Shown here one piece after another: positions 7,501 to 18,100 of a DNA stretch of 33,321 nt. Each line of letters begins with the position of its first letter. Position 1 is the first letter of the stretch. Both the position numbers and the translations under genes were made by a program. The notes under the pieces are model-generated. The model had not been told where the DNA came from. It searched no databases and was given only the letters and a program-made list of their open reading frames with translations. Source of the stretch: Candidatus Zhuqueibacterota bacterium (GTDB lineage: Bacteria; Zhuqueibacterota; Zhuqueibacteria; Oceanimicrobiales; Oceanimicrobiaceae). The stretch is taken from assembly GCA_029262035.1 (NCBI GenBank), contig JAJDAE010000104.1, positions 1-33,321 of the forward strand, written 5' to 3'.

Positions 7501-7550
7501 GCCGGAGTAATTAACAACTGGTTTATACTCCGGCTCTTTAATATTTTATT
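7501..7550 (+). terminator. Intrinsic terminator between convergent genes
   Basis: GCCGGAGTA (7501-7509) pairs perfectly with TACTCCGGC (7527-7535), leaving a 17-base loop, and is followed by a T-rich stretch (TCTTTAATATTTTATTTT). It sits just after the stop at 7495 and just before the end of the minus-strand giant gene. The T-run suits plus-strand termination best. Confidence 0.7.
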
Positions 7551-10500
7551 TTATTAAAACCATTTTCCCTGTCAGCTGCGAGCCATCTACTTTTAATTTA
7601 TAAAAATATGAACCGCTGGCAACCTGTGCACCGGCATCATTACGTCCATTCCAGGAAACAGTGTATGCACCCGCTGTTTTGCGTTCGCTGATCAACTCAC
7701 GTATTTTCCGTCCCAAAATATCATAGATGTGTAATTCAACCTGGCCGGTATTTTCCAGTGAGTAGGCTATAGTTGTACTTGGGTTGAAAGGATTCGGGTA
7801 ATTTTGGTGCAGCTGGAATGTTGTGACAATTATGGCTTTCTCCGAAACACCGGTTACTGTCTCCTCGCCTTCTCCCAGCATCATAATTTTTGCAACCGAA
7901 TCCAGGTTTGTAGCATTATGTGTAATCCACAATGTATCGATGTAGCTGCCATTAAATCCGGGGGTAAAAGCAATCGCCACTTTGTAGCTGTCGCCAGGGG
8001 CAATGCTGAAAGTGCTGTCGGCCACATCAAAATAGCCGCTGTTTTCGGTGAACGTGCCAACTAAATGTTGGGTAGAAAGCGCTGCGTTGTAAATTGTCAG
8101 TGTGTCCGTCACGGTTGAGTCAATCCTTGCTTCACCCAAATCGACCAGGGTGGTATCAAAGGTCATTTCGATGATGGCTGCTATCTCGGTGACGCCTTCA
8201 CCCTGCAGGGGAATTTCCAGGGGCGAAGCGAGATTGGTTGCATTGTGCGCAATTTCCATAAGTGCACTTTTACTGCCCATGGAACCTGGAACAAAAGTAA
8301 CGGTCATCTCGTGAGTATCGCCGGGAGCAATATCAAAACTGCTGCCGGTTACATCAAAATTCCCACTGTTTTCCGAAATCACTCCGGTTAAATTTTCCGT
8401 TGAGTTGGCTGCGTTGATAATTGTTAATGTTTTGCTCTTGGATTCACCAACGAAAACATTACCGAAATCCACGACACTTGTATCCATACGCATGGCGATG
8501 ATGGTGGCAGCGCTTTTACCTGCCAACGGAACGGCTACCGGTGAACTCAGATTCAGAGCATTGTGCACGATTTCCAATGTGTCGGCCTTTGCTCCCTCCG
8601 AATCCGGCGTGAAAGCTATAGCCACTTTGTGACTGTCTCCCGGCGCTATATCAAAACTACCGTCGGTAATTTCAAACTCTGCAGTGCTATTGGAAACTGA
8701 ACCGGTCAGAGCCGCAATGGATTTCGTTGAGTTATGGATAGTCAGCGTATCCTGTGCCGAGCTATTAGGTAAAATTTCGCCAAAGTTAAATTCGAATGCA
8801 TCCAAGCTCATGCTAACGCCTGCACCTCTACCTTGCATTGGCAGCTCCGCGGGTGAATTTGTATTGGTAGCGTTGTGCATAATTTCCAGCAATGCGCTTT
8901 GGATACCGAGTGTATCCGCATTAAACGTGATGGTCACTTCGTGGCTACCTCCGGGTGAAATGTCAAAGCTACCATCGGTTACGTTGAATACATCGCTGTC
9001 TTCAGAAACCTCACCTGTCAAATTCGCCGCCGAACCCGGCGCGTTGGAGATGGTTACAACTTGCTGCGCCGACTCCCCGACGGCTACATCGCCAAAGTCG
9101 AGCTGGATCTTATCAACGCTCATGTCTATGTCTTGGTTGGTACCTTCGCCTTGCATAGGGATTTCGGCCGGACTGCTTTGATTGCTGGCGTTGTGCGCAA
9201 TCGCCAGCGTGGCAGTTTTGGTATCTGCACTGTTAGGCGTAAACGTAACAGTTACTTCATGGTTGCCACCTGGGGCAATATCAAAGCTGTCGTCTGAAAC
9301 ATCGAAATCCGAGCCGTCGTCACTGACTGACCCAGTTAAATTATCGGTTGAAGCTGCGGCATTCGAGATGATTAATGTTTTCATCCTGGAATTACCAATT
9401 TTTACATTGCCGAAGTTCAAGCCTGTTTTGTTCACACTCAAGTAAACGCTGGTGGCAACGCTTTGCCCGCCAACGGGTATTTCAGCAGGAGAATTGATAT
9501 TGGTGGCATTGTGGGTAACTTCTAGTGAAGCGGTGTTATTGCCGGCTTCACCGGCCTCGAAGGTGAGGGTTGCCTGGTGGCTGGCACCCGGCGCAATGTT
9601 AAAACTTGCCCCGGAGATATTCATGCTTGAACCTTCGGTCAAAGCGCTGTTTTTGAATGCCACGCTACCGGTTAAATTCCCCGTGGAAGCGGCATCGTTG
9701 AAAACAGTCAAAACCTCTTGAGTCGTTTCTCCTGACAAAACATTCCCGAAGTTGATTTCAGTTTTATCCACGCTGATATCGATGTTGTTGGGTTGTGAGC
9801 CAATGCCTTCCATCGGTATTTCTGTTGGGGAACTGTAGTTGATGGCATTGTGCTCAATAAAAAGTAAAGCTGTTCTATCACCCGCAGCTTGCGGTCTAAA
9901 CCGGATGGTTACCGTGTGCCCTAATTGCTGGGTTTCAGAAGTTTCTGCCTCATGCCCTGGCTGGGCACCAGTTATCGGGGCAATGTCAAACGTCGCACCA
10001 TCGATAATCTCAAAATCATCGCTGCTTTCCGAAACCGTACCGACCAGATTAAAAGGGCCGTTCACTTTTCCTTCTCTGTTAGGAGTGTGTGTGCCATATA
10101 GGTTGGTAATTGTAATGGTCGCAATTTCCGACTCACCCAAAGCGGCCAAGCCAAAATCCAGTTCGGTTTTGTCAATGCCCATCAGGATTTCCGGCGGGGT
10201 GACATTAACGGTCATAGGAACATCCGTTGGTGTAGGTTTGTTGCCGGCGTTATGCTGAATTAGCAGGGCTGCATTTGTAATACCCTGAACCTCACCACCG
10301 AACCTGATTCTTACCGTATGATCCTGTCCGAATGGAATATCGAACGCGTTGCTATCAAGAATTTCAAATTGATTTTTTCTTGCATCGGGACCGACTATTG
10401 AAAGCCGGCCACGCAAGTTACTGCTGGTTTGGTCAATTTTTTCGGGAGTGCTTCCGTCATTAGGCCTATTCGTTATTACCAGATCTAAAACTTTGGCGCT

Positions 10501-12900
10501 TCCCAGTGGCACATCGCCAAAGTCAAGCTCCGACGCGCTTAAGTCCAGGGAGGCATCGGTCTCCTGTACAAAACCAATACCTGATAACGGTACATTATCT
10601 ATAGGTGAAGCAATATTGATCGCATCATGCTCGATGCTCAACACAGCGGTTTTGTTACCGGCTGAAGTCGGCGCGAACCGGATGGTAACCTCCTGCGTTT
10701 CATTTCGCGAAAGATTAAAGCTGCCGTTAAGTACGCTGAAATCCGGACTATCTAACGAAACGGTTCCAGTCAAATTAGTGTTTGAGCCTTCCTGGTTATG
10801 TATGTGCATGATAATATCCTTTGACAACCCAACTTCCACACTATCGAAAACGAGCGGATCGCCGCCCACTGTCATCATAGCTCCGAGTCCGACACCAGCC
10901 ATTAGTATTTCCACAGGAGATGTTTCATTAGCGGCATTATGAGCTATATTCAGTGCACCGTTTTTGCTACCTATAGAAGTTGGGGCTAATTGTACGGTTA
11001 CCTCATGGCTGCCGCTAGGAGCAATATCAAAACTGCTACCGCTGACAATGCTGTATTCATCGTCATTTTCAGTAACTGTGCCGGTTAAGTTTGCTGATGC
11101 ACCGGCATCATTAAAAATAGTTAAAACCTCCTGGCGTGTTTCCCCAATCCTGACCACTGAAAAACCAAGGTCGGTTTTATCAAAAGAAATCAAACTTCCT
11201 GCGGTAATATTGGCATCTATACCAATGTAGACTTGGGGAGCCGTATTGCGGCCATTGTGGATAAATCCCAAAGAAGCATTTTCAGGGCCTGGCATTTGCC
11301 CGGCATCAAAGCGAACGGCAACTTCATGTGCCGTGCCAGCAGGAATATCAAATTCCGCTCCACCAATAATGGTAAAAGTACCATTGTTGTCGTCAGAGTC
11401 GACTATTGAAACAGAGCCTTGCAGGTTGTCCCACTGTACCCCGGCAAAATTTACATCCGGATTGAGGTTTTGTATCAGCAACGTACCCATTTGTGAACCA
11501 CCCGGCTCTACGTCACCAAAGTTAATGCCTGAAAAATCCGTGTTGAAAAAAGGATAAGCTGTGGCTTCTAAACCAACTCCTTCCATTGATAAGTCGAAAG
11601 GTGAACTGGTGTTGGTCGCATTGTGCTCAATACGCACCTTGCCGCTTTTCGTACCTGTGGAAGTTGGTTCGAAAAGCACCTGCACGTCATGGCTGGAGCC
11701 AGGGGCAATGTCAAAACTACTTCCAGTGAGAATTCTAAATTCTTCGCGATTATCATCCACGGTGCCAGTTAAGTTTTCAGTTGAATTAGCATCGTTAGAA
11801 ATAGTAAACCAAGCGTAGTGAGATTCCCCGACGGTGACGCCACCCAAATCCAGGCTTGCAGGCGAGACTTCCATGTTGACAACTGTTTGAATTCCTGTCC
11901 CCGAAAGCGGAACCTCTTCCGGTGAAGAAGTATTAGTAGCATTATGCTCAACCCTCAGCGTACCGCTCTCACTGCTTCCTGAAGTTGGAGAGAAGGTCAC
12001 ATTTATCGAATGACTACCGCCCGGCGCAATATCAAAACTGGTATTGCCGGTAGCATTTCTAAAAACCGCACCGTCTACAGAAAAAGTTCCGGTTAAATTT
12101 GTAGTGGAGCTGTTATCATTAGAAACTATGAGTGTTAGCACTGCGGTCGAACCGACGGGAATAAGGGTACCAAAATCAAGGTTTGTGTGGCTTAATTCCA
12201 TATTGCGCATGTGAATACCCGTTCCTGTCATGTTGAGGTCTGTAGGCGAAGAAGTATTGGTTGCATCGTGCCCAATACGCAGGGTACCATTCTTATTGCC
12301 TTCGGAACCTGGCGCAAACTGAACGGTTACAGTATGACTGCCGCCGGGAGCAATATCAAAATTACCGCCACTGACAACACTGAACCCGGACGTGTTTGTG
12401 GCAACGGTTCCTTGTATATTGTCGCTATTATTTGATGCTGCCTTCAACTGGAAGGTTTTTTGCCCGGTTTCACCGACCAGAACATCACCAAAATCTATAT
12501 CTCCGGGATTTCCGTCAAAGTCTCTGCGGTCTAAGGCTTCTCCCGCCATGGGAATTGTAGCAGGCGACCCGACATTTGTAGCATTGTGTTGGATGCTTAA
12601 TGTGGCGCTCTTATTGCCTCCCGAATTGGGTGCAAATTTTATGGTTACCGTGTGACTACCGCCCGGAGCAATATTAAAACTACTATTACTGACATTGAAA
12701 TCGCCGCTGTTAGATGAAGCAGAGCCAACCAAGTTTGCAGCTCCGCCATTTGAAATAGTTAATTGTTTTTCATTGGACCCGCCAACGTAAACCTGTCCAA
12801 AATCAATACTGGTTGAACTCACACTTATTTTCTGCGCAAAAGCAGAACTAGCGCCACAAAATAAAAGTAAAGTTGTAATTAAATTTATGTAGTGTTTCAT
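7546..12900 (-). CDS. Giant secreted protein of 15 tandem choice-of-anchor-D Ig-like domains with a T9SS type A sorting domain
   Basis: 1784 aa. A signal peptide (residues 1-22) has a likely cleavage AFA|Q. Residues about 23-1680 are 15 successive domains of mostly 100-110 aa, longer in 5, 8 and 9. Each has the pattern 'DFG-x-V-x-x-G' near its start, 'NLTGTV' in the middle, 'SFDIAPGGSHEVTVTFAP' and a closing 'HNATN-x-x-SP-x-E-x-P-x-x-G'. This is the ASPM/SPD-2/Hydin-like (choice-of-anchor D) fold. The last 90 residues (1695-1784) are a T9SS type A/FlgD-like sorting domain with QNYPNPFNPST and SWNGRNDAGAQVASG. The protein is therefore expected to cross the outer membrane and be displayed or released. 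GAGGAG precedes the ATG. It is the last of three same-strand exported-protein genes below a hybrid sensor gene. An adhesin or structural fibre is plausible; the ligand is unknown. Confidence 0.93.
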   Translation of the reverse strand: MKHYINLITTLLLFCGASSAFAQKISVSSTSIDFGQVYVGGSNEKQLTISNGGAANLVGSASSNSGDFNVSNSSFNIAPGGSHTVTIKFAPNSGGNKSATLSIQHNATNVGSPATIPMAGEALDRRDFDGNPGDIDFGDVLVGETGQKTFQLKAASNNSDNIQGTVATNTSGFSVVSGGNFDIAPGGSHTVTVQFAPGSEGNKNGTLRIGHDATNTSSPTDLNMTGTGIHMRNMELSHTNLDFGTLIPVGSTAVLTLIVSNDNSSTTNLTGTFSVDGAVFRNATGNTSFDIAPGGSHSINVTFSPTSGSSESGTLRVEHNATNTSSPEEVPLSGTGIQTVVNMEVSPASLDLGGVTVGESHYAWFTISNDANSTENLTGTVDDNREEFRILTGSSFDIAPGSSHDVQVLFEPTSTGTKSGKVRIEHNATNTSSPFDLSMEGVGLEATAYPFFNTDFSGINFGDVEPGGSQMGTLLIQNLNPDVNFAGVQWDNLQGSVSIVDSDDNNGTFTIIGGAEFDIPAGTAHEVAVRFDAGQMPGPENASLGFIHNGRNTAPQVYIGIDANITAGSLISFDKTDLGFSVVRIGETRQEVLTIFNDAGASANLTGTVTENDDEYSIVSGSSFDIAPSGSHEVTVQLAPTSIGSKNGALNIAHNAANETSPVEILMAGVGLGAMMTVGGDPLVFDSVEVGLSKDIIMHIHNQEGSNTNLTGTVSLDSPDFSVLNGSFNLSRNETQEVTIRFAPTSAGNKTAVLSIEHDAINIASPIDNVPLSGIGFVQETDASLDLSASELDFGDVPLGSAKVLDLVITNRPNDGSTPEKIDQTSSNLRGRLSIVGPDARKNQFEILDSNAFDIPFGQDHTVRIRFGGEVQGITNAALLIQHNAGNKPTPTDVPMTVNVTPPEILMGIDKTELDFGLAALGESEIATITITNLYGTHTPNREGKVNGPFNLVGTVSESSDDFEIIDGATFDIAPITGAQPGHEAETSETQQLGHTVTIRFRPQAAGDRTALLFIEHNAINYSSPTEIPMEGIGSQPNNIDISVDKTEINFGNVLSGETTQEVLTVFNDAASTGNLTGSVAFKNSALTEGSSMNISGASFNIAPGASHQATLTFEAGEAGNNTASLEVTHNATNINSPAEIPVGGQSVATSVYLSVNKTGLNFGNVKIGNSRMKTLIISNAAASTDNLTGSVSDDGSDFDVSDDSFDIAPGGNHEVTVTFTPNSADTKTATLAIAHNASNQSSPAEIPMQGEGTNQDIDMSVDKIQLDFGDVAVGESAQQVVTISNAPGSAANLTGEVSEDSDVFNVTDGSFDISPGGSHEVTITFNADTLGIQSALLEIMHNATNTNSPAELPMQGRGAGVSMSLDAFEFNFGEILPNSSAQDTLTIHNSTKSIAALTGSVSNSTAEFEITDGSFDIAPGDSHKVAIAFTPDSEGAKADTLEIVHNALNLSSPVAVPLAGKSAATIIAMRMDTSVVDFGNVFVGESKSKTLTIINAANSTENLTGVISENSGNFDVTGSSFDIAPGDTHEMTVTFVPGSMGSKSALMEIAHNATNLASPLEIPLQGEGVTEIAAIIEMTFDTTLVDLGEARIDSTVTDTLTIYNAALSTQHLVGTFTENSGYFDVADSTFSIAPGDSYKVAIAFTPGFNGSYIDTLWITHNATNLDSVAKIMMLGEGEETVTGVSEKAIIVTTFQLHQNYPNPFNPSTTIAYSLENTGQVELHIYDILGRKIRELISERKTAGAYTVSWNGRNDAGAQVASGSYFYKLKVDGSQLTGKMVLIK
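7857..12834 (-). repeat. Tandem array of about 15 coding repeats, unit near 315 bp
   Basis: The array encodes the 15 Ig-like domains. The most conserved stretch encodes FDIAPGGSH and appears on the plus strand as variants of GCCCGGAGCAATATCAAAACT, about once per 315-390 bp. A second conserved stretch encodes HNATN (plus-strand GCATTGTG/GCATTATG). Units are diverged at the DNA level, so this is an old expansion kept by selection rather than a recent slip-strand array. The long plus-strand open frames inside are shadows of these repeats. Confidence 0.85.
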
Positions 12901-12990: not shown

Positions 12991-14352
12991 CTATTTCATC
13001 AAAATCATTTTCCCGTTAAGCTGCGAACCATCCACATTTAACTTGTAGAAGTATGTACCGCTCGCGACCTGCGCTCCTGCATCATTACGACCGTTCCAGG
13101 AAATTGTGTATTCACCCGCAGATTTCGCTTCGTTAACCAATTCGCGTACTTGCTGCCCAAGTGTGTTAAAAATTCGCAATTCAACCCTTCCTGATTTTTC
13201 AAGGGAATAGGCAATGTTTGTATTTGGGTTGAACGGATTTGGGTAGTTTTGTCGTAGTTGGAAGCCTGCCACAGATAAATCATCTAAAGAAACACTGGTT
13301 GGATTTGCTGCGCTGCCCCAAACCTGTACTGTTCTTGCCACAACATCGCGCCCAATCAATTCCGGGAAAGAATCGCCGTCCAAATCGTAAATGGCAAGAA
13401 GTTCAAAATTTGCATCAAGGGAGTGTAAAGCTTTATCCAATGTTACAATGCTGCGTGAGCCAAAAATCGCTTCTTTCTGACCATCAGCGTTTACATCAAA
13501 AAAGCCGTGAAAGTAGCTGCGAATATCATCTTGGTCATCTCCGGACTCCGGGAATGGATAGTTCCAGCTTTGGCTGGAATTAACGCCATTGAATACACGT
13601 ATACCTATGGCATTGCCATCACCATCTTCTACCAAGGTCACAATTTCCATGGTACCATCGCCATTAAAATCCAAATCTCGTGTATGAGAAAAAAGGTCAC
13701 GGTTAACTGCCAGGCGCTGATTCGGCTCGGATTCATATTTTAAAGTTAGCTCGTAAGTCTGATTGCTTTTGGATAGGCCACTGTATTGAGCTTGATTGAA
13801 GTCGCTGCGAATTGGAGCGTTTCCGTTGCCTTGCCAGCTAATTATAAAAACCTGTTTATTTTCAATATCATAAATGGCAATATCAGGGAAACCGCTGTTG
13901 TCAAAATCGTCAATGGCTACTGCTTTTGCGTTTTGCATCTCAAAATCGCTTTCACCGGTTTCCATATTAATGAGCATCAAAGCATTCCCAGCCAATTCAG
14001 CCAGCATATGCGTGGCCATAAAGTCATCGCTTTTATGGTCAACCACGGCAAGGCCTATTAGAGAGACTATAGTTGCACCCGACGGTATTTCCTGTATATA
14101 GACATTATTTTTATTTAAGCCATCAATAACTCGTATCGAATCACCGTGCATCGCAAAAAAATCCAAAGAGCCGTTGTTGTTGAAGTCCTCAATGATATTT
14201 TCATTGTTGGTTAAGATAGCGGTCTCTCCGGTCGGAAGAAAACCTTGAGCCGGGCGCTGTCCGGCTTCGGAACGGTAGATTTCAACAAACTGGGCTAAAG
14301 CTGCGCTGTTTATGAGAAACAGCATTGTGAATATTTTTATCGTATTTTTCAT
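12991..14352 (-). CDS. Secreted FG-GAP/VCBS-like repeat protein with T9SS type A sorting domain
   Basis: 453 aa. A signal peptide ends ALA|Q near residue 20. The body contains repeated Asp-rich loops of the calcium-binding FG-GAP/VCBS type: DFNNNGSLD, DFDNSGFPD, DFNGDGTMEIV, DVNADGQKE and DLDGDSFPE. These indicate a beta-propeller-like surface domain. Residues 364-453 are a sorting domain (QNYPNPFNPNT, SWNGRNDAGAQVASG) very similar to that of the neighbouring giant protein, so both should leave by the same type IX system. A GAGGA site precedes the ATG. The giant gene begins 90 bp downstream, and a shorter relative lies 67 bp upstream; all three are probably one transcript. Function beyond a surface or extracellular role is unknown. 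Confidence 0.9.
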   Translation of the reverse strand: MKNTIKIFTMLFLINSAALAQFVEIYRSEAGQRPAQGFLPTGETAILTNNENIIEDFNNNGSLDFFAMHGDSIRVIDGLNKNNVYIQEIPSGATIVSLIGLAVVDHKSDDFMATHMLAELAGNALMLINMETGESDFEMQNAKAVAIDDFDNSGFPDIAIYDIENKQVFIISWQGNGNAPIRSDFNQAQYSGLSKSNQTYELTLKYESEPNQRLAVNRDLFSHTRDLDFNGDGTMEIVTLVEDGDGNAIGIRVFNGVNSSQSWNYPFPESGDDQDDIRSYFHGFFDVNADGQKEAIFGSRSIVTLDKALHSLDANFELLAIYDLDGDSFPELIGRDVVARTVQVWGSAANPTSVSLDDLSVAGFQLRQNYPNPFNPNTNIAYSLEKSGRVELRIFNTLGQQVRELVNEAKSAGEYTISWNGRNDAGAQVASGTYFYKLNVDGSQLNGKMILMK

Positions 14353-15193: not shown

Positions 15194-18100
15194 TTACTCA
15201 TTTAATTCCGAGGGCAACATCCCAAATTGTTTTTGAAATGCTTTTGAAAAATAAGAGAGACTGTTAAAGCCGGTTTGAAAAGCTATTTCGGAGACAGTAC
15301 CAGCTTCTTGTTCCAATAGTTGGCGTGCTCGCTGCAATCGGACGCTACGAATAAAACCAGTGGGTGAAAGATTTGTAATGGCACTTATTTTACGGTGTAA
15401 TTGCCGTCTGCCAATATTCATTTCCAGGCTTAACATTTCAACGCCGAATTCTTCTTCTTCCATGTGTTCTTCAATCACTGATATTATTTTTTCAAAAAAG
15501 GCCTTATCTACGGATGTAACCGTGACTTCACTGGGTTGTATGAGACCGCCCTCGTGCATAAAACGCTGCCTTAGTTTTCGTCGTTGTTCGATTAAATTCG
15601 ACACCCGTACCAGCATTTCTTTAGAGCTAAACGGCTTAGTCAGGTAATCATCAGCGCCTGTTTCCAAACCCGCGAGTTTGTCTTTTTCACCTGCCCTAGC
15701 TGTGAGCAAAATTACCGGAATGTGGCTGGTTTTTTCATCAGTTTTCAGGGCAGCACAAAACTCATAGCCATTCATTTTCGGCATCATAACATCGCTTATA
15801 ACCAAATCCGGAACAAGCTCGCTTGCTTTTTCAAGACCATCTGCACCATTATCAGATTCAACAATTTTATAATGCTCTTCCAAATGTTTACGAATATAGT
15901 GTCGAACATCCTTATGGTCGTCTACAATCAGGATGATATTTTCATTTTCAGAATCCTGGAGCGCTGCGGGTAATGATTCCACTTCTGCTTCAGAATCAAC
16001 TTCCGGGATAAATATTTTCGGCTCCGTTTTTTCAATTTCGATAGAGTCCTCTATGATTTCTTCTTCAGTAAGATGCGCGTTGCCCTTAGGCAACCAAACG
16101 GTAAACTCGGCACCTATGCCCATTTCACTTTGCACTTCTATTTTGCCTTTATGAAGTTCTACAAGTTCTTTGGTTAAAGCCAGACCAATGCCGCTACCGC
16201 TGTGCTCGCGTGTGCTGCTGCCATCTACCTGGAAGAAGCGGTCGAAAACATGGGGTAACTGCCCTGATGGGATACCGATACCGGTGTCTTTAACTGAAAT
16301 TTTTAAATTGCCAGGCACTTTAGAAGTGCCTGGCAATTCATCAGCTTGAAACGAAATTGATACCGTTATTGCCCCACCTGCTGATGTAAATTTAAAAGCA
16401 TTGGAAAGCAGGTTGAAGAAGATTTTCTCAATTTTGTCCGAATCGAAGTAAATCTCAGACTGTTCCGGTGAAGTCTTGAAATCATCACAAGCTTCAAAAT
16501 TCAATGCAATATTTTTTTGTTCCGCCAGCGATGCAAACGCCATCACCAGCCCCCTTAAAAACTCGACTATGTTTTCTTTTTTTGCGTTTAGCATCATTTT
16601 GCCCGACTCAAGCCGGGAAAGATCGAGTAATTGATTTATTAGACTCAAAACCCGTTTAGCATTGCGTTGAATCAAGTTTAGGGATTCTTTACTGTCTTTA
16701 TTCTTGGTTTTTTCAAGAAGATCCTCTAACGGCCCTATAATTAAAGTGAGCGGCGTACGGAATTCGTGGGAAATATTGGCAAAAAAACGCGACTTTAACT
16801 GATCAACTTCCAGGAGTTTTTGGGCTTTGAACTCTTTTTTTTCCAATTCACCGCGCATTTTCAAACGACTAATTTCCATCCTTCGAGCAGCATAAAGCAG
16901 GCAGACCAAAACGACAGCATAAACAAAATATGCCCAGGTCGTTCGCCACCAAGGCGGCAATATTGTTATCTTAACCGATGTACCGGTTTCATTCCAAACG
17001 CCATCATTATTTGAGCCTTTAACCCGAAATATATATTGCCCTGGATTGAGGTTGGTATAACTAGCGAATTTTGTCCGACTTTGTATCCAATCTTTGTCGA
17101 AACCTACCATCTTATGAGCATACTTATTCTTTTCAGGATTGGTAAAATCAAGGGCAGCAAAATCAAAAGAAAAAAAGTTTTCATCGTAGGTTAACTCAAT
17201 ATTTCTAATTTCTGAAATGACTGTATCCAGTTGAGCCGGTTTATTAAACTTTCGAAAACCTGTCAAGACCACTTTAGGTTTGGAGGGATTGTCAATTACC
17301 TGATCCGGAGAGAAGGCGTTAAATCCATTAATGCCACCCAAAAATAACTGCCCCGTCTCACTTTTATAAAATGCGCCATTGCTAAATTCGTTACTTTGCA
17401 AACCGTCACTGACTTCGTAATTTCTAAAATTAATCCCCTCAAGTCCTTCGGTGTACTTTGAAAGTCCTTTATTCGTGCTTAGCCAAAGGCTGCCGTTATC
17501 ATCTTCAAGAATACCCATAATAACGTTATTGGGTAATCCATCCTGTTCAAAGAAATAGATGAATTTTGACGAAGCATAATCAAATTTATTCAAACCGTTC
17601 TTCGTACCAACCCAAAGGTTTTCCGCGATATCTTTGTGAATGGCGAGGACACCATTGTCGCTTAAACTACCAGGAATCTCTGGGTTATGTTTATACGATT
17701 TAAACTTACCTGTTTCGATGTCAAATTCATTTAAGCCACCGCCCATGGTCCCAATCCACAACGTTCCGTCTTGAATCTCGTAAATATCCATTATAAAATT
17801 GTGGCTGATAGATTCTGTATTTTCCGGGTCATGTTTATAATGCGAAAAGGTCTGCGTTTTAGGATCAAATTTATTCAATCCGCCCTGCCTTGTGCCAATC
17901 CAGAGAATCCCGTTCTTGTCCCGTAAAAAGGTCATAATAAAATCGTCATTCAGGCTATTGGCGATATCCGGATTATGTTTATAATGCACAAACTTTCCGG
18001 TTGAAGGTGTGAACTTATTCAAACCGCCGCCCCAGGTACCAAGCCACAAATTGCCGGCTTTATCATTATCAATCGCCATTACTGCGTTTGCGCTCAGGCT

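Follow-up and report, generated by a model that had tools for sequence, protein, structure and literature searches.

A 33-bp palindrome in frame in a hybrid histidine kinase gene of Candidatus Zhuqueibacterota belongs to a dispersed hairpin family also found beside Y1 transposase genes

The window analyzed here, a 33,321-nucleotide stretch from a Candidatus Zhuqueibacterota genome (contig JAJDAE010000104.1), carries a hybrid histidine kinase gene whose Pfam matches follow the order Reg_prop repeats (a propeller), Y_Y_Y, HisKA, HATPase_c, Response_reg, and HTH_18. At 16306-16338, the window reads AATTGCCAGGCACTT-TAG-AAGTGCCTGGCAATT, a perfect palindrome with 15-bp arms and a 3-nt loop, and the peptide LPGTSKVPGN that it adds to HATPase_c lies a few residues upstream of DTGIGI. 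An earlier note on this DNA had described a 33-base palindrome of 15 matched pairs in a coding region and an in-frame extra loop before the DTGIGI box, and both are present exactly as described (Table 1). Elsewhere in the window, the reverse strand encodes a 1784-aa protein with many similar repeats (7546-12900) and a neighbor (12991-14352); the ends of the two genes are 75% identical in DNA, and both proteins close with what we take to be an NPFNP-type sorting-like stretch.

Table 1. Features of the kinase gene and of the palindrome within it.
Feature	Positions in window	Strand	Basis and remarks
Hybrid histidine kinase, host gene, 1409 aa	15194..19423	-	ORF and Pfam
HATPase_c domain, holds the palindrome, directly before the DTGIGI box	16085..16444	-	Pfam match, residues 994-1113
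Codons of the extra loop LPGTSKVPGN, kinase residues 1030-1039	16307..16336	-	ORF translation and homologue alignment
Left arm, 15 nt	16306..16320	.	Sequence; pairs 12-14 covary, pair 15 near-constant A-T
3-nt loop, TAG on + / CTA on coding strand	16321..16323	.	Sequence; loop variable among copies
Right arm, 15 nt	16324..16338	.	Sequence and pair covariation

Loop-3 palindromes with arms of at least 15 bp are expected 4 × 10⁻⁵ times per window and 0.006 times per 5.3 Mb. The second-longest loop-3 arm of the window measures 8 bp, and the palindrome sequence had no match in 100 shuffles of the window. The expected number makes a chance palindrome very unlikely, as the earlier note had surmised. 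The 65 nt around the palindrome fold as RNA at -31.1 kcal/mol (z -7.2). A short, G+C-rich hairpin of this kind might be taken for a transcription terminator or attenuator lying in a gene by accident, and most copies found in the window's class do lie outside long ORFs; however, no terminator was called at the site, where a hairpin with a T run is absent, and beyond the hairpin the reading frame continues for 371 residues without a stop. No Rfam family reached its gathering score within 15800-16800, which counts against a terminator and also discards a known structured RNA. We regard the terminator or attenuator as the least probable of the readings considered.

We aligned the kinase with its homologues, collected at 30 loci including the window itself, and LPGTSKVPGN occurred in none of the 25 others that gave alignment rows. 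Among these homologues, the loop before the DTGIGI box ranges from a few to more than 30 residues, and against three solved kinases, 6 loop residues of the element region are unmatched and face a gap. A search for an empty-site allele of the kinase in 60 genomes (the window's own and 59 relatives) recovered only distant homologues, those listed being at most 55% identical. As a flexible stretch with Pro and Gly in the ATPase domain, the extra loop probably has a neutral effect. Three homologues (L062, L326, and L357) carry long, odd loops before their DTGIGI or DSGIGI boxes, such as SVCSGQWSAVSKQSQ and KYEVRSPKCEVCAN, which resemble translated dispersed repeats and sit roughly at the position of the window's element.

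The palindrome belongs to a repeat family. In the window's genome (5.3 Mb, 372 contigs), the pattern GCCAGGCACTT-N3-AAGTGCCTGGC with up to 3 mismatches matched 8 copies, a count of 3-nt-loop copies that leaves outside it those with other loop lengths, such as the ones on C203 and C289; the reversed-pattern control gave 0 matches. The genome search for further copies proposed in the earlier note thus returned several instead of none. Several of these copies have changed on both arms with pairing preserved. Across the 60 genomes, 18 (own included) hold copies, 102 in total, and all controls gave 0. A scan of GTDB contigs recovered at least 117 stretches with at least 122 exact-core sites, and the hosts among the matches listed are mostly Chloroflexi, together with Calditrichaeota/KSB1, Planctomycetota, Neomarinimicrobiota, Fodinibius, and Lewinella. 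These counts bear on the reading that the loop is an old and ordinary part of the kinase, its palindrome having arisen by chance or through template-switch perfection of a quasi-palindrome. The highly variable loop length among homologues would suit such an origin, but the same core recurs at many unlinked sites with a reversed control of zero, and the chance expectation for the window is as low as given above; we consider an old loop highly unlikely.

The extent of the unit was read from stem positions 12, 13, 14, and 15, which the search pattern left unfixed. In 119 distinct listed GTDB sites, these positions are Watson-Crick paired in 118, 115, 113, and 110 cases, against shuffle means of 99.6, 106.4, 52.0, and 108.3, and all four Watson-Crick pairs occur at position 14. 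Position 15 does not covary because it is a near-constant A-T, and pairing at positions 16-19 is near the shuffle mean in the same listed sites; of the 122 listed sites, 73 have arms that pair over exactly 15 bp. For the window's class, 77 distinct copies of the 102 counted (leaving out most of those of G021 and G054) are paired at positions 12-15 in 71, 65, 58, and 62 cases, with shuffle means of 57.5, 31.1, 21.5, and 63.0. Since pairs 12-14 covary, pair 15 is conserved, and pairing beyond is at chance level, the unit is 15 + 3 + 15 = 33 bp, or 11 codons. No target-site motif stood out around the copies; the one departure noted was a scarcity of A at the base immediately flanking the stem in the listed GTDB set.

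A longer element was also seen in the window's genome: two 90-bp copies (C1:3364-3453 and C88:45056-45145) have 15-bp inverted ends set 60 bp apart instead of 3. The ends resemble the arms of the 33-bp hairpin with A/T exchanged within the core, and further pairs are similarly spaced. The 90-bp element looks like a MITE or a REPIN-like relative of the hairpin.

Hairpins of the family also stand beside transposase genes. In two genomes of the window's class (L091 and L092), they lie on both sides of a single Y1_Tnp gene (PF01797; E 2.5 × 10⁻¹⁴ and 1.6 × 10⁻¹³), with hairpin starts 641 and 668 bp apart. A similar layout with hairpins of 33-35 nt was found in two Chloroflexi genomes (L241 and L243) and in one of Planctomycetota (L236, where the hairpins are imperfect), and a genome of the window's own family has a Y1 gene between GCCACG-variant hairpins (L076). 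The window's genome holds 5 Y1 genes, none of them flanked by the exact hairpin of the window. One (L010) lies between perfect 33-bp hairpins of a second family, AACCTTGCGAAGGTT-N3-AACCTTCGCAAGGTT, another (L009) between two unlike imperfect hairpins; a third (L012) has one short hairpin, a fourth (L013) two 24-nt hairpins on the same side, and beside the fifth (L011) no hairpin was seen. At a further locus (L334), 33-bp AACCTTGCGAAGGTT hairpins occupy both sides. The two flanks of the Y1 element of L092 (G046, C187) share a repeat of ~50 bp of host DNA (~968-1020 and 1731-1783), as if the insertion had come with a duplication.

A tree was built from the 18 of 28 Y1 genes that passed the profile, with the remaining 10, such as L009, left out. 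The nine rows that carry one or the other of these two hairpin types form one group (90/93, unstarred by the tool), and three rows with AACCTTGCG hairpins form a subclade (98/99); the outer tree is unsure owing to long branches. The profile was seeded with four hairpin-flanked proteins, making L241, L076, L236, L334, and L354 its only independent finds. Eight of the nine grouped rows are flanked left and right by hairpins of their own type; L354 has one on a single side. The adjoining row, L240, has two hairpins of other sequences, so hairpins beside Y1 genes are not unique to the nine-row group. With four Y1 queries, a match was obtained in 1 of the 117 listed GTDB stretches, and solo copies are mostly without a nearby Y1 gene. 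Because hairpins of the same type flank one group of Y1 genes (IS200-like, RAYT-type), the best interpretation of the window's copy is a solo terminal hairpin.

We then consider the copies that lie inside genes. By codon usage over up to 60 codons per side, the element is flanked left and right by coding sequence in a single frame at 26 of 116 testable listed GTDB sites (6 of the 122 listed are near contig ends and fall outside the testable set). These intragenic copies come from seven Chloroflexi genomes, 15 from one of them, and 25 of the 26 read VPGTxxVPGT (binomial 2 × 10⁻¹¹), the exception, L159, reading RARHFRSAWH. Of 2278 random positions in the same loci, 923 fell in genes, distributed over the frames as 286/312/325, so that copies are rarer in genes than random positions are (odds ratio 0.42, p 8 × 10⁻⁵). 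Since the listed sites are not all independent lineages, these p values are indicative. The codon-usage model had been trained on 12 of the tested ORFs; retrained on 10 ORFs with their loci excluded, it placed 16 of 17 copies in the VPGT frame (2.7 × 10⁻⁷). Being Chloroflexi-trained, the model may overlook genes of other phyla, and it missed the Pfam-supported L204. One further listed GTDB site is coding on both sides in different frames, and four more have a single best frame interrupted by a stop, three of them in the VPGT frame and one in another. The bias could reflect target choice instead of selection, but since copies are under-represented in genes, selection is the simpler explanation.

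Of 37 ORFs in which the element has 100 or more residues on each side, 28 were searched with Pfam, and 11 of the 28 have domain matches on both sides of it or spanning it: L159 and ten proteins in the VPGT frame. The ten are A2M, a MalT-like protein (whose upstream matches fall under the Pfam cut-offs), GH38, an Mrp/Mbh antiporter, PheT, an ABC transporter, Wzy, E2, DUF6206, and AroC. When AroC, E2, and PheT are compared with solved homologues, the element is unmatched, partly or wholly; the alignment of the ABC transporter skips the element stretch and thus gives no evidence for an insert. In the window's class, 1 of 77 copies has at least 100 open residues on both sides, namely the window's own, the next best having 73. 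One point has to be added to the earlier note's comparison with protein-coding palindromic elements: in the window's own class a gene copy is exceptional, and the evidence for a gene-insertion habit of this first family comes from the Chloroflexi copies.

Sites with and without the element were compared in one Chloroflexi family of 10 genomes, eight of which hold 204 copies. In aroC, the element is present in two genomes and a different, C-rich/G-rich insert in two, five are uninserted, and one gene is cut off at the loop; the net gain is 9 codons against four of the empty relatives and 10 against the fifth, not 11. The element occurs in 2 of the 9 pheT rows that cover the site and, for the E2 gene, only in the query genome among 10 aligned rows, some of them paralogues. 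Loop lengths in pheT and E2 are inconsistent among relatives, and with loops that vary in length, the aroC, pheT, and E2 rows do not fix the exact inserted length. The AroC loop (L248, L249, and L255) holds the VPGT element in two genomes and the unlike insert in two others, and a third aroC gene breaks off in a stretch that begins alike; unlike inserts have thus used one AroC loop.

Between the query aroC and its closest listed relative (L246 and L247, from two related genomes), an A/T exchange is compensated on both arms and leaves the peptide unchanged, through either template-switch repair or two separate insertions. This exchange, together with the perfect and strong stem in the window, would be expected if an mRNA stem-loop were functional in the kinase message, for example in translation pausing or mRNA decay, with the peptide incidental. 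Most copies, however, lie outside genes and some flank transposase genes, which explains the conservation of the stem without any role in the kinase; a recent insertion or template-switch repair would likewise leave the arms perfect, and template switching may polish them. A functional stem-loop in the message seems to us improbable, less so than the old loop or the terminator.

The second hairpin family provides a separate view of the kinases. Its copies number 17 in the window's genome and 43 across the 8 genomes that have any among 11 searched; the control gave 0. We examined 32 of the 43, from eight genomes, and 5 of them sit in long ORFs; all five read xPxxGxxPSQG(L/F) in one frame, a coincidence with a probability of 0.004. 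By eye from their translations, the five ORFs are hybrid kinases like that of the window, and a homologue search matched the kinase on C346 of the window's genome to the window's kinase. This paralogue contains two in-frame copies with mismatches (G000 C346:7137-7165 and 8424-8452; L339:2638 and 3925), and the others lie in kinases of G002 (one) and G003 (two). Placed by eye, the sites are in a Y_Y_Y loop, in an ATPase-domain loop, and in the linker before the receiver. With both hairpin families found in hybrid kinases of the window's own class, this kinase family is a repeated place of in-frame hairpin survival.

The earlier note had likened the palindrome to the Rickettsia palindromic elements (RPEs). 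In the accessible parts of two sources, RPEs are palindromic Rickettsia repeats of ~105-150 bp that occur in frame within numerous unrelated genes as well as between genes (PMC2229807, PMC10969869). The present family works in the same manner, with palindromes in frame in loops of unrelated protein-coding genes and copies between genes; but it is not an RPE as so described, being 33 bp long, hosted by other phyla, and associated with Y1 transposase genes that carry the same hairpin on their flanks. Counterparts of the Rickettsia elements have reportedly been found in Wolbachia.

REPs, as far as the accessible text of one source goes, include GTAG- and CGTC-tagged palindromes of 20-40 bp in many copies, some intragenic, the GTAG type occurring with RAYT transposases; its authors suggest that intragenic REPs are neutral in flexible linkers or loops (PMC3733652). 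GTAG/GTGG foot motifs of REP hairpins are likewise described in part of another (PMC6006769). The present family is similar in being short, palindromic, multicopy, and sometimes intragenic, and in having its palindrome next to a gene for a Y1 tyrosine transposase. It differs in its 15-bp stem, compared with 5-13 and 8-9 bp (Table 1 of PMC3733652), and in its strong single-frame bias, of which we found no statement for GTAG/CGTC REPs in the accessible text of that paper. A consistent GTAG or CGTC foot tag is absent: raw counts at the stem foot are 2/120 and 2/76 for GTAG and 10/120 and 1/76 for CGTC.

TIRtrons (TIRYT), in the portion of the same source available to us, consist of a RAYT-like gene between inverted repeats, some self-complementary and also found solo in the genome, and are described for, e.g., Stenotrophomonas and Acidobacteria (PMC3733652). 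Likened by these descriptions, they are probably the nearest published architecture: here too, a Y1/RAYT-like gene has the repeat on both sides and solo repeats are dispersed elsewhere. The present family differs from them in its organisms, and we found no mention of solo TIRs inside genes in the accessible text (PMC3733652). With Y1 elements of the IS200/IS605 type, the family shares PF01797 and hairpins near both ends, but here solo hairpins far outnumber hairpin-bearing Y1 genes, and the hairpins are long, near-perfect, and symmetric. Intragenic REPs, RPEs, and RAYT-like genes between TIRs have thus been published, as far as the accessible parts of these sources go, whereas the present family and its frame bias were not found there. 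In open-access literature (subscription papers being outside the scope), we recognized no report of this hairpin family or its frame bias, and nothing relevant appeared for the peptide VPGTSEVPGT or the hairpin DNA core.

We consider it very likely that the palindrome in the kinase is a solo copy of a 33-bp hairpin of the kind that flanks one group of Y1 genes in this class and in other phyla, once mobilized, whose in-frame insertion into a loop was tolerated and is probably neutral. Judging from the flanking arrangement, the Y1 protein would recognize the hairpin and would once have moved solo hairpins as non-autonomous elements. Where a 33-bp, 11-codon insertion entered a surface loop in the VPGTxxVPGT frame, the protein would still work and the copy could survive; most other insertions in genes would have been purged. 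The kinase, for its part, would tolerate a turn-rich insert in a variable surface loop.

More tentatively, and with somewhat more doubt than belief, we suggest that a transposase-linked hairpin lineage has become fitted to life in genes: a length of 33 nt, a nearly constant reading as the hydrophilic turn (V/L)PGTxxVPGT, occurrence across phyla, sites in loops of housekeeping enzymes and kinases, and two hairpin families in kinases are the features that point this way. If true, this would give a protein-coding palindromic element whose mobilizing enzyme can be identified. The accessible part of a 2007 review presents transposase-driven movement of small mobile sequences as a hypothesis lacking experimental support (PMC2229807), and this hairpin family bears on how RPE-like protein-coding palindromes move. 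Here one hairpin family both occurs within genes in a constant frame and flanks a small transposase gene whose own frame is open, which brings binding, cleavage, and the phase of insertion within reach of direct tests. The family may also offer a concrete route by which mobile DNA becomes loops in AroC, PheT, E2, and signalling kinases.
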